DNA of 64,000 nt from a bacterium. GTDB lineage: Bacteria; Caldisericota; Caldisericia; Cryosericales; Cryosericaceae. The position numbers were made by a program, and so were the translations under genes. Shown piece by piece: positions 11,476 to 16,882 of this stretch (position 1 is its first letter; every line of letters begins with the position of its first letter). A model generated the notes under the pieces. That model worked only from the letters and a program-made list of their open reading frames with translations, was not told the origin of the DNA and made no database searches. Location of the stretch: contig JAJFTL010000022.1 in the NCBI GenBank assembly GCA_021373025.1, positions 186,001 to 250,000 of the forward strand, in the 5' to 3' direction.

Positions 11476-12684
11476 TCACATGCCTGAAAAATCCCAATGA
11501 ATGTCGGATAACTGTTCTCGGAATTTGCTTACGTCTACGGCAGATCGCATCGCTTGCTGCAACTGGCGTGAGCCCGATGTTGTTCCATACAGGATGATGC
11601 CGACGATAACGCCCCCGTCAAGCACGACTTTGCGGTAGACCTGTTCGCTCTGGGCCACAATGGCCTCAAGATGCTGGTCTTCAGTTGGATTGACGTTGCC
11701 GATACTCAGAACCTCTACGCCACATGTCTTGAGGGAATTTGACATCACGCTGCCCTTGTAGGTGGCAGAGCCAGAAGCAACCATATTCTGAGCAGCAATT
11801 CTGGCTTGTTCCAGGCATGGTGGGATAATGCCGTAGAGTCGCCCGTGGTGTTCAATGACATCGCCGGCAGCATAGACGTCCGGTGCGGACGTCTGTAGAA
11901 AATCATCGACCTGAACGCCTCGACCCGTCGCGATGCCTGCTTCGCGCGCCAGAGCAACATTCGGGCGGACTCCGGTGGAAAAGAGGACGAATGCTCCACG
12001 TACCACACGACCGTCCTTGAGTACGACGCCGGTGGCGCTATCATCCTGCCCGGTAATTTCTTGTGATTCGGCATTGAGGAATGCGGTGATTCCAAGGCCT
12101 TGCAAGTGCGCGGCAAGCATGTCTGCCGATCTCTGGTCAAGCTGCCTAGAGAGTAGCCAACCCGTGTTCTCGATCACCGTTGCGGTCATGCCACGTTCGG
12201 TGAAAGCTCGTGCGACCTCGAGTCCAAGCACTCCTCCCCCGATCATCACGACGTTGCCACCCGGAGATACCTTTTTTAGCATACGGTCGGCATCATCGAG
12301 CGTTCTGAGGGTGAAAACGCTTGCTTTGCGTACCCCGGGGAGAGGCGGGACGAATGGTGAAGCCCCATTGGCCAAGAGCAGGCGATCGTAGGAGATTGTG
12401 GAGCCATCGTCCAGGGATGCCCGGTGGCGTGTGGTATCAATGGTCTGGACGCGTCGGCCGCTGGTGAGGGAAATCCTGTTGTCGTGATACCAGGGCAGGT
12501 CGTGCATGGCAAGGTGGTTGCGGGACTTGCGGCCCGCGATATAGTCAATCAGGTCAGGTCGCGGATAGTAAAGTTCCGGCTCTGCTTCAACAATAGTAAT
12601 GTCTGAGGACGGATCAAGGCTACGCAGGTGCTGCGCAGCAGCTATTCCCGTCGCCCAACCTCCGACGACGAGGTACTTGTTCAT
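11476..12684 (-). CDS. NAD(P)/FAD-dependent oxidoreductase, probable NADH:rubredoxin reductase
   Basis: A 402-residue pyridine-nucleotide-disulfide oxidoreductase fold: an N-terminal FAD-binding beta-alpha-beta at residues 4-35 (motif VVGGWATG, with the second glycine altered), an NAD-binding GGGVLGLEVARAF segment at about 148-160, and the DVYAAGD FAD motif near 268. It resembles nitrite-reductase-like and NROR-type flavoproteins. It lies 12 bases downstream of a rubredoxin gene in the same orientation, which makes rubredoxin the likely electron acceptor; such pairs feed oxygen- or peroxide-reducing proteins in anaerobes. No such terminal reductase is in the window. Confidence 0.85.
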   Translation of the reverse strand: MNKYLVVGGWATGIAAAQHLRSLDPSSDITIVEAEPELYYPRPDLIDYIAGRKSRNHLAMHDLPWYHDNRISLTSGRRVQTIDTTRHRASLDDGSTISYDRLLLANGASPFVPPLPGVRKASVFTLRTLDDADRMLKKVSPGGNVVMIGGGVLGLEVARAFTERGMTATVIENTGWLLSRQLDQRSADMLAAHLQGLGITAFLNAESQEITGQDDSATGVVLKDGRVVRGAFVLFSTGVRPNVALAREAGIATGRGVQVDDFLQTSAPDVYAAGDVIEHHGRLYGIIPPCLEQARIAAQNMVASGSATYKGSVMSNSLKTCGVEVLSIGNVNPTEDQHLEAIVAQSEQVYRKVVLDGGVIVGIILYGTTSGSRQLQQAMRSAVDVSKFREQLSDIHWDFSGM

Positions 12685-12696
12685 AGGCGTCTCGAA

Positions 12697-12855
12697 TCAA
12701 GCTTTCTCAAAAAGGTCCTTGGCAGCTCCGCAGTCTGGGCAAACCCAGCTTTCGGGCAAATCTTCAAATTTCACGCCAGGATCAATACCCTGTGTACTGT
12801 CACCAACAGCTGGATCATAAACATACCCACATACAGTGCAAATCCACTTCTCCAC
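12697..12855 (-). CDS. Rubredoxin
   Basis: A 52-residue one-iron electron carrier. The four ligands are C6, C9 (CTVCG) and C39, C42 (CPDCGA), with the conserved [16 protein letters not shown] start and the ESWVCPDCG end. The start is GTG at 12855, five bases after GGAGG (on the minus strand); an open frame continues far upstream but without homology. It is the first gene of a two-gene operon with a flavoprotein reductase and has a clear promoter at 12909-12936. Confidence 0.95.
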
Positions 12856-12908
12856 GACTTCCTCCTTGTTTAATGGAATCCCGAAGCAAACAGTGCTTCT
12901 CTCAGGCA

Positions 12909-12936: not shown

Positions 12937-13018
12937 ATGGGGTGATGCTCTTGGAGCGCACACATGGCACTCGGGCAGTATGCTGTGAGGACAGAGCCAG
13001 AAGGCCCTGGGAGGTGAC

Positions 13019-13545
13019 ATGAAATATCAGGCAGTGGTTGATAGACAGCAAGGAGATCGTGAACTTCGGCTCGGCAATGAGGCCGCAGTTCGTGGAGCTC
13101 TCGAGGCAGGGATCGGAGTGGCTGCCAGCTACCCGGGAACGCCGTCCTCGGAGATTGGGGACGTCCTCGGCGCAGGGGCGAAAGCCTCAGGAGTTTATTT
13201 CGAGTTCTCTACAAATGAGAAGGTAGCACTCGAGGTCGCTACAGCCGCTGCAGCAAGTGGTGTTTGGACATTTACGTTCATGAAGCATGTGGGGCTGAAT
13301 GTGCCGGCAGAATCCTCAGGGTGGGCCTTTCGTATCGATTGCCATTGGAGGAAATATGGCAGACGCTCCGGGTGGACCATGAGGTTTGTAGCGGATGCAT
13401 GCCCTGTGTCCAGAAGGTCGCCTGCCCTGCCATTTTTGTCGTGGACAATAGGACAGAGATGCGCCAGGAGCCGTGCGATGGCTGTGGAATCTACTCTCAG
13501 ATCTGTCCCGTACACACTATCGAGGCGAAGAAATGGACTCGCTGA
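13019..13545 (+). pseudogene. iorA: iorA remnant: indolepyruvate ferredoxin oxidoreductase alpha subunit with large internal deletion and frame change
   Basis: The intact protein is about 580-620 residues and oxidises aryl pyruvates with TPP and ferredoxin. Here only about 95 N-terminal residues remain (LGNEAAVRGALEAGIGVAASYPGTPSSEIG and, later, EKVALEVATAAAASG...MKHVGLNV), reading from ATG 13019. At about 13300-13350 the frame changes and joins directly to the C-terminal ferredoxin domain, read one frame off, ending at TGA 13545. All central TPP-binding sequence is missing. The ferredoxin part is also damaged: the second cluster reads CDGCGIYSQICP, with Tyr in place of the third Cys. A good ribosome site (GGGAGGTGAC) still precedes ATG. 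Confidence 0.85.
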
Positions 13546-13937
13546 ATGTGCTCTTTGGTGGAGTCCGAGGACATGGCATCATTACCGAAATTCGCGCAAT
13601 TGTTCCAGTGGCTGTTTCGCTTGGGGGTACACCATATCCTGAGGAGGATGTGTTCGTTCCGCAGATGCGGTCTCAGGTGAAAACAGTGTGTCCTGTCCCT
13701 GCCACAGAGATCGCTGAGACAATCGAATTGACACAGGCTGCCAATATGGTTCTGTCGGGAACAGCCATAAGGACAGACCTGATTCTGCCAGAGCTGGCGG
13801 CAATCCGCGAGACGTTAGTGCGGACTCTGCCGGCAAGAACGCTCGATCTCAACCTTAAGGCACTGGAAGAAGGGTTTGACGTCATCCCGGTGACCCAGGC
13901 CATTGACAGGAAGACCATCAGACAAGGTGGCTGGTAG
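13533..13937 (+). pseudogene. iorB: iorB remnant: indolepyruvate ferredoxin oxidoreductase beta subunit with in-frame internal deletion
   Basis: The normal subunit is about 190 residues. Here an open frame of 134 residues starts with the family N terminus (SLNVLFGGVRGHGII, where the family has GVGGQGI) and then jumps to the RAIVPVAVSLGG strand that normally lies about 80 residues later, followed by an otherwise family-like C-terminal half. The segment with the GSEVHGMAQRGG signature is absent. The gene overlaps the end of the iorA remnant by 13 bases, as in intact ior operons. Because the frame is preserved it could still be translated, but catalysis is not expected. It overlaps the convergent phosphatase by 20 bases. 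Confidence 0.8.
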
Positions 13938-14520
13938 AGTCCATACTCAGCGCCCGCCATGTCTTGTCCTCCATGGTGAGGACGGAAATTCCAGCATTCA
14001 GTTGCTCAAAGTCGCTGTATGCCGAAGCGGGAAGGTCAAGCAGGGTGGAGATGAGAATGCGATTGATGCCTCCATGTGCAACAACAAGTATCAGACGTCC
14101 GGGATGCGATTCAAGAAGCGACCGCACGTTCCTGGCGCGGATGCCCGCCTGGAGCAAGGATTCGCCGCCATCTGGCTGAGCTTCTGGCAACTTTAGTTTC
14201 CATGCCGCAAAAGTATCAGGATACAGTACCTCAACCTCATTCAACGTGTGCCCTTCCCAGCCTCCGAAGTTGATTTCCTGAAGATCCGGAACGACAATAG
14301 CGGGGATACCGAGAGTCTGACCGACAGGCTCTGCTATTGCCCGGGCCCGGGCCAGTGGACTCGTGAAGACTGCATCGAATCGGACAGTGGAGAGAAATGC
14401 AATCGTTTTCCGTGTCTGAACAACTCCTGTTGGTGAGAGGGGTATGTCAAGAGCCCCCTGTACTTTGCCTGCGACATTCCACGCTGTTTCTGCATGACGC
14501 ACAAGATAGACGGTTTTCAC
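13918..14520 (-). CDS. Histidine phosphatase (phosphoglycerate-mutase-like) family protein
   Basis: A 200-residue branch-1 histidine phosphatase. The catalytic RHAET motif is at residues 8-12 (LVRHAETAWN), the proton-donor region is EINFGGWEG at about 83-91, and the second catalytic His is in VVAHGG near 150. These fit the CobC / PhoE / GpmB-like group; the sequence alone does not identify the substrate (phosphoglycerate, alpha-ribazole phosphate or others). No cobalamin genes lie nearby. It is divergent from the SCIFF gene and converges on the iorB remnant. Confidence 0.85.
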   Translation of the reverse strand: MKTVYLVRHAETAWNVAGKVQGALDIPLSPTGVVQTRKTIAFLSTVRFDAVFTSPLARARAIAEPVGQTLGIPAIVVPDLQEINFGGWEGHTLNEVEVLYPDTFAAWKLKLPEAQPDGGESLLQAGIRARNVRSLLESHPGRLILVVAHGGINRILISTLLDLPASAYSDFEQLNAGISVLTMEDKTWRALSMDSTSHLV

Positions 14521-14531
14521 GGCTCAACCCC

Positions 14532-14561
14532 TTGACTTATGCTGTTTAGGATAGATATTAT
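14532..14561 (+). promoter_or_regulatory. Predicted promoter of the SCIFF/maturase operon
   Basis: TTGACT (14532-14537), 18-base spacer, TATTAT (14556-14561), 36 bases before the SCIFF ATG. Confidence 0.6.
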
Positions 14562-14597
14562 CAAGGACAAATCTAGATTTGGCAAGGGAGTGAAATC

Positions 14598-14765
14598 ATG
14601 AAGCTGATCAACGTCGTGGCCGTGAAGACGATCGATATCAATGACAAGCCTGCCAAGGCTTGCCGTGAGTGTCAGACACCATGCAAGTCCGCCTGCAAGA
14701 CATCATGCACGGTGGGAAACCAGGTCTGCGAAACCAGGAAGAAACCGACCAGGTTTATTTGGTAG
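14598..14765 (+). CDS. scfA: SCIFF ribosomal peptide precursor (six cysteines in forty-five residues)
   Basis: A 55-residue peptide. Six cysteines at 22, 25, 29, 33, 37 and 44 sit in the conserved core ECQTPCKSACKTSCTVGNQ, which is the hallmark of the SCIFF family (TIGR03973). The leader is MKLINVVAVK-like and basic, and the tail ends RKKPTRFIW. A ribosome site (GGCAAGGGAG) precedes ATG 14598. The gene ends four bases before the radical SAM maturase that is predicted to install Cys-to-Thr/Ser-type thioether crosslinks (as shown for Clostridium CteA/CteB). The biological role of the mature peptide is unknown. SCIFF is nearly universal in Clostridia; in this divergent genome its presence is a notable marker. 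Confidence 0.93.
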   Translation: MKLINVVAVKTIDINDKPAKACRECQTPCKSACKTSCTVGNQVCETRKKPTRFIW

Positions 14766-14768
14766 GCC

Positions 14769-16157
14769 TTGGCGCTCTCTAAAGTTTTGCCCGCCTCAGT
14801 CCATCTCTTTGAGAGAGGCGGTTTTTTTGTGCTTCTGGATGTGCCGTCGGGTTCAGTCTTCTCTGTGGATGGAAGAGTCTATGACTACCTACAGGTACTA
14901 CTGGAGGATCCTGAGTCCACAACCGAGGTGGTGCTGCAGCGGACAGGACTGGATGCAGAGATAATCCATGAGATCGAAGCTGAGCTCGAACGCCTGATCA
15001 CTGCAGAGTGCCTGTTCACTGAGGCAGAGCGCCCGACCGAAGATGCCTCCCAACTCGTTCTCAAATCATTATGCCTCAATGTGGCCCATGAATGCAATTT
15101 CGCGTGCAGGTACTGTTTTGCCAACGGTGGCGACTATCATGGCCAGGGAACACTGATGACTCATGATGTTGCCCGTGCGGGGATTGACTTTCTGGTACAG
15201 CAAAGCAGTTCTCGCAGGAATGTCGAGGTGGACTTCTTTGGAGGCGAGCCGCTCATGGACTGGGACGTCGTCGTTGATGCCATGGACTATGCCCGCCATT
15301 CATATCCGGAGAAGGAATGGCGCTTTACGTTGACGACCAACGGTTCACTGCTGCGCGACGATATGTTTCCTGTTCTGGAAGCATATGACGTATCGGTCGT
15401 GCTCAGTGTTGATGGGGGCAGAAAGACACATGATGCGAATCGCGTTTTCAAGGATGGGCGAGGTACCTTGGACGTAATTCTCGAACGCATCCGGCACTTC
15501 ACCCGGACGCGCGATGATGAAGGGGGCTACTTTGTGCGAGGCACCTACGCGCGCAATACCCTTGGATTTGCACAGAGTGTGCGTGACCTTCATGAGCTTG
15601 GATTCAAGTACATTTCGATGGAACCTGTAGTGCTGTCTACTGAATCGGCATTGGCTCTTCAAAAGAGTGATCTGCCTGCCATTCGAGCCCAGTACGAAGA
15701 ACTTATTTCCTACTTCCTGCATGAGCTCAGATCAGGATCGGGGTTTGATTTCTTTCACTTCAAGCTAGACCTTGAAGCAGGCCCATGCCTCAGCAAGCGT
15801 ATCTATGGGTGCGGTGCGGGCGTCGAATATATGGCGGTAGCTCCAAATGGGGACATCTTCCCCTGTCACCAGTTCGACGGCATTGAAGAGTTCAAAATGG
15901 GGAATGTTCTCATGAGCCCGGTGATCAGCAGACCGGACCTGGTATCGGAGTTTGCACACGCGAATTTCCTGTTTGCGAAGGACGAGTGCAGTGCGTGCTG
16001 GGCACGCTTTTACTGTAGCGGAGGCTGCCTTGCAAACAATTATCTGATGAACGCGGACATCCTCAAGCCATACGAATTGGGATGTGCTATCCAGAAGGAA
16101 CGCATAGAAGCTGCGCTGGTTGTCAAGACGGCGGAGGCTCCTGACAGCCGTGGATAG
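14769..16157 (+). CDS. scfB: SCIFF maturase: radical SAM/SPASM thioether-forming enzyme
   Basis: A 462-residue enzyme (TIGR03974-like). An N-terminal PqqD-like peptide-recognition region (about residues 1-90, ASVHLFERGG...SGSVFSVDG) precedes the radical SAM core with C109, C113, C116 (CNFACRYC) binding the SAM-coordinating 4Fe-4S cluster. The C-terminal SPASM region carries further cysteines (GCGAG, FPCHQFDG, CSACWARFYCSGGC, ELGC) for auxiliary clusters. The start is taken as TTG 14769, three bases after the SCIFF stop; no upstream in-frame ATG is available. It should crosslink the SCIFF cysteines to neighbouring alpha-carbons, forming thioethers. Confidence 0.92.
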   Translation: MALSKVLPASVHLFERGGFFVLLDVPSGSVFSVDGRVYDYLQVLLEDPESTTEVVLQRTGLDAEIIHEIEAELERLITAECLFTEAERPTEDASQLVLKSLCLNVAHECNFACRYCFANGGDYHGQGTLMTHDVARAGIDFLVQQSSSRRNVEVDFFGGEPLMDWDVVVDAMDYARHSYPEKEWRFTLTTNGSLLRDDMFPVLEAYDVSVVLSVDGGRKTHDANRVFKDGRGTLDVILERIRHFTRTRDDEGGYFVRGTYARNTLGFAQSVRDLHELGFKYISMEPVVLSTESALALQKSDLPAIRAQYEELISYFLHELRSGSGFDFFHFKLDLEAGPCLSKRIYGCGAGVEYMAVAPNGDIFPCHQFDGIEEFKMGNVLMSPVISRPDLVSEFAHANFLFAKDECSACWARFYCSGGCLANNYLMNADILKPYELGCAIQKERIEAALVVKTAEAPDSRG

Positions 16158-16557: not shown

Positions 16558-16642
16558 TGGTGCCGAGGGTGGGAATTGAACCCACACGGATTGCTCCATG
16601 CGCCCCTTAAACGCACGCGTCTGCCAATTCCGCCACCCCGGC
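16558..16642 (-). tRNA. tRNA-Leu(UAA)
   Basis: An 85-base class II tRNA on the minus strand, with acceptor GCCGGGG/CCTCGGC, anticodon loop TTTAAGG (anticodon TAA), a long variable arm, T-loop GGTTCAATTCC, discriminator A and encoded CCA. It is 18 bases after secG, so the three tRNAs may be read through from the secG promoter. Confidence 0.95.
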
Positions 16643-16660: not shown

Positions 16661-16882
16661 CTAGAACTTGAAGACTACCAGCACCAGGGACAACACCACA
16701 AATGCAACGGATAGAACAATAGCAAGCCGGTCAAGAAGAACGTCTTTCGTCTTCCGTGCATGAAAGACCGTAGCGCTCCCTGAGATAGCGCCCAAGCCAC
16801 TGCCCTTGGGCTCCATGAACAGAATCGCAAGGATAACTCCGACCGCAACCAAAGCCATAACTATTTCCAAAGCGGTTTTCAA
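16661..16882 (-). CDS. secG: Preprotein translocase subunit SecG
   Basis: A 73-residue membrane protein with two hydrophobic helices (about residues 6-23 and 52-71) flanking the polar loop EPKGSGLGAISGSATVF, the recognised SecG loop. It is the small accessory subunit of the SecYEG channel. The start is TTG, six bases after GGAGG on the minus strand. It has its own promoter and is followed by three tRNA genes, an arrangement that often follows secG in anaerobic Firmicutes-like genomes. Confidence 0.93.
   Translation of the reverse strand: MKTALEIVMALVAVGVILAILFMEPKGSGLGAISGSATVFHARKTKDVLLDRLAIVLSVAFVVLSLVLVVFKF

Follow-up and report, generated by a model that had tools for sequence, protein, structure and literature searches.

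The window, the 64,000-nucleotide stretch of DNA analyzed here (contig JAJFTL010000022.1, positions 186,001 to 250,000), comes from a Candidatus Cryosericum genome, a permafrost lineage outside Clostridia. It contains a short precursor gene followed directly by the gene of a radical SAM enzyme (Table 1), and the pair belongs to the SCIFF (six-cysteine ranthipeptide) systems, which the literature treats as a feature of clostridia recognized by six cysteines. The named closest relatives, Ca. C. hinesii, odellii, terrychapinii, and septentrionale, have maturases about 77% identical to that of the window; in the NCBI taxonomy the genus is filed under Candidatus Cryosericota.

Table 1. Features of the SCIFF locus and its surroundings (positions in the window)
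Feature	Position	Strand	Basis or remark
Rubredoxin-reductase-like flavoprotein; rubredoxin	11476..12684; 12697..12900	-	
ior remnants	13010..13883		
Histidine phosphatase	13918..14520	-	PF00300
Sigma-70-like promoter match TTGACT-N18-TATTAT	14532..14561	+	Consensus scan, 10/12 matches; a consensus match only, no proof of function
Ribosome-binding site AAGGGAG	14584..14590	+	Read from sequence, seven bases 5' of ATG
SCIFF precursor gene, 55 aa	14598..14765	+	TIGR03973 and PF13165 profiles
Leader, residues 1-21 (boundary inferred)	14598..14660	+	Least constrained part, pN/pS 0.291
Core, residues 22-45, C1xxC2xxxC3xxxC4KTSC5T...C6E	14661..14732	+	pN/pS 0.009
Codon of Cys37 (C5), TGC	14706..14708	+	Codon comparison, trees, G005 peptide; Ser in 14 congeners
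C-terminal tail TRKKPTRFIW	14733..14762	+	Kept in the class
SCIFF maturase, radical SAM/SPASM enzyme, TTG start	14769..16157	+	TIGR03974 499.7 bits, cut-off 425; 5WGG, E = 2e-115
Terminator-like hairpin CCGCCTC-N17-GAGGCGG-TTTTTTT over maturase codons 8-20	14791..14828	+	13 of 14 genus members
N-terminal beta-beta-beta-alpha-alpha-alpha order, putative RRE, residues ~11-78	14799..15002	+	AlphaFold2 model
CxxxCxxC motif for SAM [4Fe-4S] cluster, Cys109, 113, 116	15093..15116	+	Invariant in all compared maturases
SPASM-region Cys340, 348, 366, 407, 410, 416, 420, 439	15786..16085	+	Aligned with CteB Cys335-431
tRNA-Leu, anticodon AAG	16558..16642		
secG	16661..16882		

An initial annotation, made from the letters alone, had named the two genes as a SCIFF precursor and its SPASM radical SAM maturase, and both exceed the curated cut-offs of the profiles it had proposed for checking. 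For the precursor ORF, both models give a clear call, TIGR03973 at 56.9 bits (cut-off 50) and PF13165 at 56.8 (cut-off 27). The enzyme passes TIGR03974, its best-matching equivalog; the exception model NF040492 reaches 443.5 against 855. The 55-codon gene does carry six cysteines, at residues 22, 25, 29, 33, 37, and 44, within the 45 residues named by TIGR03973. Within the genus, the six cysteines hold as a hallmark for the window peptide only, which is the exception: its 14 congeners have five core cysteines each and lack C5. The spacing from the precursor stop to the maturase start is 3 bases, not the four reported at first, and congeners have the two genes in the same order. The position of the window's ribosome-binding site is occupied in congeners by GAGAAGGGAG or a similar sequence, and the maturase start is supported by GTG at the aligned position in 13 of 13 congener loci. 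Over 14 genus members, pN/pS increases from the core through the tail (0.109) to the leader. By this measure, the core is under strong purifying selection; the tail is also clearly constrained, but less so. Since the gene order is constant in the genus and in most of the class and the core is so constrained, the pairing of precursor and maturase is beyond chance.

The best solved relative of the maturase is 5WGG, known as CteB. With ScfB/CteB (TIGR03974; 5WGG) it shares the CxxxCxxC motif, the eight SPASM-region cysteines, and probably an RRE-like N-terminus; it is about 40% identical to the clostridial enzymes and scores about 235-300 bits under their best members on TIGR03974. Twelve CteB cysteines, among them the radical SAM triad and the eight of the SPASM region, are invariant in all Caldisericia enzymes compared, including those of family f4; the counterpart of CteB Cys440 is Ala in Cryosericum enzymes. 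The predicted order of N-terminal elements is consistent with an RRE: residues 31-78 have block pLDDT values of 72-89 in an AlphaFold2 model whose overall mean is only 48.9 (11 near relatives in the alignment). Two other identities were rejected, the PapB family (NF047865, 248.9 against a cut-off of 340) and the quinohemoprotein amine dehydrogenase maturase (TIGR03906, 230.4 against 453). PapB (freyrasin) and PeaB/QhpD have the radical SAM/SPASM thioether chemistry and superfamily in common with the window enzyme, which remains far under their cut-offs, and their substrates differ.

The surroundings agree with the first reading, which had placed a histidine phosphatase and decayed ior genes beside the pair. 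A 663-aa congener IorA matches the remnants in two pieces (residues 37-138 and 604-663) lying in different frames, and IorB likewise matches in two pieces. Large internal loss and frame changes have broken both genes in the window genome, while the three congener loci examined retain them at full length. A rubredoxin and a rubredoxin-reductase-like flavoprotein are also encoded near the SCIFF pair. secG was rejected as a partner: it lies beyond three tRNA genes, and outside the genus it was not found as a shared neighbor. Neighbor genes differ between families, so that the precursor and maturase form the conserved unit.

The precursor profile matched once per genome in 44 of the 49 class members and in 3 of the 5 remaining phylum members (47/54 in all), counted in the search tool's own groups, which are taken to equal GTDB Caldisericia and Caldisericota. 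The genomes sampled from the rest of bacteria gave matches in 4 of 332. The maturase is present at E<=1e-100 in 41 of the 54 phylum genomes. Elsewhere it occurs in 123 of 148 sampled genomes of a class whose frequency and high maturase scores suggest Clostridia, in 11 of 151 sampled genomes of a class taken to be Bacilli, in all three genomes of the phylum f52, and in all nine genomes of another phylum, that of genome G088 (families f42, f239, and f349), possibly Coprothermobacter-like bacteria. The Clostridia count bears out the earlier statement that SCIFF is near-universal in that class. The same annotation had offered the locus as a distant sequence for comparison; this is right in that it lies outside Clostridia, but it is not isolated, being nearly universal in its own class.

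The abundance of SCIFF in Clostridia would suit an ordinary locus recently transferred from there. This explanation is very improbable and was rejected on the tree and synteny: in the maturase tree, Clostridia and Bacilli form one supported side (99/96 and 100/99) with the Caldisericia enzymes outside it, and the gene order around the locus is constant across the genus members compared. The tail, moreover, is absent from all 31 Clostridia peptides. Vertical inheritance in Caldisericia is suggested by the gene tree and by synteny among the genus members; grouping the maturases of tail-bearing peptides in a single clade is compatible with the data (AU p = 0.54).

Peptides of relatives, read from the DNA upstream of each maturase, differ in their cysteines. 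All 31 Clostridia peptides have six, and one Clostridia locus (L141) encodes two tandem cores in a single ORF. C4 is present in all scored peptides of Clostridia, Bacilli, and Cryosericum. C5 is Ser in all 14 congeners, and among the 15 Cryosericum peptides read the window's alone has Cys there. The window peptide seems to have regained C5; a single-base assembly error could also give the Cys37 codon. In other families C5 is Val (f3) or Met (f2 and f52), or is present (f5, f6, and f7). The f4 peptides have Ala at C4 and Asn at C5 and keep C1, C2, C3, and C6, in agreement among five genomes.

The nine-genome phylum goes furthest. C1, C2, and C6 are absent from all eight readable peptides; those of f42 and f239 keep C3 and C4 alone, and that of f349 keeps C5 as well. 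These two- or three-cysteine SCIFF-like peptides (L173-L175 and L177-L185), for example MVRVIIKNELQKEEDFKGACQTACKTSATVSNVTFEPEQ, lie directly 5' of a maturase relative and share with the window peptide the C3-xxA-C4-KTS core. Two of the three families score under both SCIFF cut-offs (the f42 and f239 peptides tested have 22-23 bits against 50 with TIGR03973 and 20.6-20.7 against 27 with PF13165), whereas the f349 peptide is under TIGR03973 only (34.5 against 50; PF13165, 36.5 against 27). That they are real genes is supported by silent codon changes around an unchanged core. The maturases of this phylum lack the cysteine aligned to CteB Cys335, which is Ser or Asp there and Cys in all other SCIFF-type enzymes compared. 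This change is the sole maturase difference tracking the substrate. The paired loss of Cys335 and of peptide C1, C2, and C6 corresponds to one or two independent events, which are beyond statistics, and is therefore a lead only. Compared across these alignments, the six-cysteine feature is not conserved among SCIFF relatives, and as few as two cysteines are kept.

The published chemistry is a single gamma-thioether from the fourth cysteine (Cys32), with the acceptor in dispute: Thr37 was reported in vitro, and Thr34 when the genes were co-expressed (PMC8326336, PMC8172795). Thr34 is kept in all 31 Clostridia peptides, while position 37 is Gly in 25 of them, and this conservation favors Thr34 as the acceptor. 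The equivalents of Cys32, Thr34, and Thr37 in the window peptide are Cys33, Thr35, and Thr38. By analogy with CteA and Tte1186a, we predict for it a single Cys33-Thr35 thioether with Thr38 as the alternative acceptor. The N-terminal recognition domain of the maturase would bind the leader, the 5'-deoxyadenosyl radical would take a hydrogen from Thr35 (CteA Thr34), and the Cys33 thiolate, held by an auxiliary cluster, would then form the thioether. In the f4 loci (L156, L158, and L186-L188), Ala replaces the published donor Cys4 beside an intact maturase (in those checked); the donor in f4 cannot be Cys4, and we infer that another donor must be used or the cross-link must have been lost.

Family f4 also invites a different explanation, in which the conserved cysteines of the mature peptide serve as ligands of a metal or an iron-sulfur cluster and thioether formation comes second. 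C1, C2, C3, and C6 survive there without Cys4 and Cys5, and CxxCxxxC with a distant cysteine could ligate a metal. We regard this as unlikely: the nine-genome phylum retains only C3 and C4 (f349 also C5), which cannot supply a four-cysteine site on one chain.

The initial annotation had remarked that the window tail ends in RKKPTRFIW, and this ending proves to be the local form of a class-wide C-terminus of nearly fixed length without a clostridial counterpart. The tail comprises 11 residues after C6 (Glu counted) in 36 of the 37 tail-bearing peptides scored first and 12 in the other one; L189, an f5 peptide added afterward, has 12 as well. Tails are borne by Cryosericum, f2, f3, f4, f5, f6, and f52 and end in RFIW, RWIW, KWIW, PWIL, TYIF, KFVF, KWTW, or EWMF, the usual form being [RK]-aromatic-I-W. 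No aromatic-ended tail was found in Clostridia, Bacilli, or f7, where peptides usually stop 2-7 residues past C6. The aromatic tail may serve to anchor the peptide to the maturase or to its target.

The hairpin at the gene junction could reduce read-through into the maturase and thereby keep the substrate in excess over the enzyme. Of 14 genus members, counting the window, 13 have a like hairpin, compared with 2 of 84 stretches taken from these genes as controls; the T tract has the full seven T in 12 members and is TTTTTATG in one. A competing explanation, somewhat less likely than not, treats the hairpin as a functionless consequence of encoding the protein sequence PAS-HLFERGGFFV. About 7% of synonymous recodings of the same protein also yield a terminator-like element, the T tract is broken in congener L014, and a standard scan (loops up to 8) does not report the hairpin, whose loop of 17 is long. 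Against it, the number of distinct synonymous codons is lower in the hairpin than elsewhere (1.91 against 2.63; 3 of 194 blocks are as low), and terminator-like hairpins of different sequence occupy the corresponding junction in f3 (5 of 11 loci) and in Clostridia (15 of 31 loci, compared with 1 of 192 controls, which were not intergenic, spacers often holding terminators).

The statement that SCIFF has no known role is out of date: according to two reviews, disrupting the genes in C. beijerinckii reduced the expression of sporulation genes and increased that of agr, and a quorum-sensing function has been proposed for SCIFF ranthipeptides (PMC8326336, PMC8102284). It is nevertheless unlikely that the window product is a secreted antimicrobial, or a sporulation or quorum signal like the one proposed in solventogenic clostridia. 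In favor of this reading are the C. beijerinckii effects and an arrangement in f7 (L152 and L160), where an ABC-type ATPase and two membrane proteins, a possible dedicated exporter as read from sequence, lie directly 3' of the maturase. However, no exporter or protease is conserved beside the pair across the families of the class, and Spo0A_C has no match in any of 71 genomes searched, 54 of them from this phylum (B. subtilis was positive). Near-universal presence in single copy speaks against an antibiotic, the same argument being made in PMC8326336. As a phylum without Spo0A keeps SCIFF almost universally, control of sporulation cannot be its general role; other signaling roles are compatible with the absence of Spo0A. 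Taken together, these features (single copy, near-universality in the class, no conserved exporter or protease, and absence of Spo0A) make a housekeeping signal or regulator the likelier function, a proposal of low certainty.

Our main reading, with a probability of about 0.8, is that the locus encodes a ranthipeptide system of SCIFF type, belonging to a separate subtype that bears the tail and has been passed down vertically within Caldisericia, with the Cys33-Thr35 thioether, attenuation by the hairpin, and a housekeeping role as its proposed parts. At the level of sequence, it has the precursor and maturase families, their constant order, the intact cluster cysteines, the conserved core, and the class-wide tail. 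It shares with CteA of C. thermocellum and Tte1186a the short leader, the CxxCxxxCxxxCKTSC...C core, and the position directly 5' of the maturase. It differs from them in the 11-12-residue aromatic-ended tail of the Caldisericia form and in the loss of Cys5 in the rest of the genus, f3, and f2 and of Cys4 in f4.

The identification of the window genes is in itself ordinary; what is new is the tail shared across the class, the series of peptides with ever fewer cysteines, down to two, the lack of Cys4 in one family, and the conservation of Thr34. A literature search, with most subscription journals outside its scope, found no paper joining Caldiserica and SCIFF. Natural peptides with 6, 5, 4, 3, and 2 cysteines, each encoded beside a maturase relative, amount to a ready-made deletion series in which donor and acceptor can be tested, and the two-cysteine capability and the conserved aromatic tail point to the chemically important part. 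The two-cysteine form scores under the levels at which current models call SCIFF genes. A broader view, which we put at slightly less than even odds, is that SCIFF is an ancient peptide system of anaerobes, spread over several phyla, that works with a core of no more than Cys3-x-x-Ala-Cys4-Lys-Thr. C1, C2, C5, and C6 would be lineage-specific, with the loss of C1, C2, and C6 paired with that of CteB Cys335; Caldisericia would have added a length-constrained aromatic docking tail, and the Coprothermobacter-like bacteria would carry an unrecognized two-cysteine form.

Downstream of the maturase lies a tRNA-Leu gene with the anticodon AAG, which is probably unusual in bacteria; the same anticodon was called in six congener loci.
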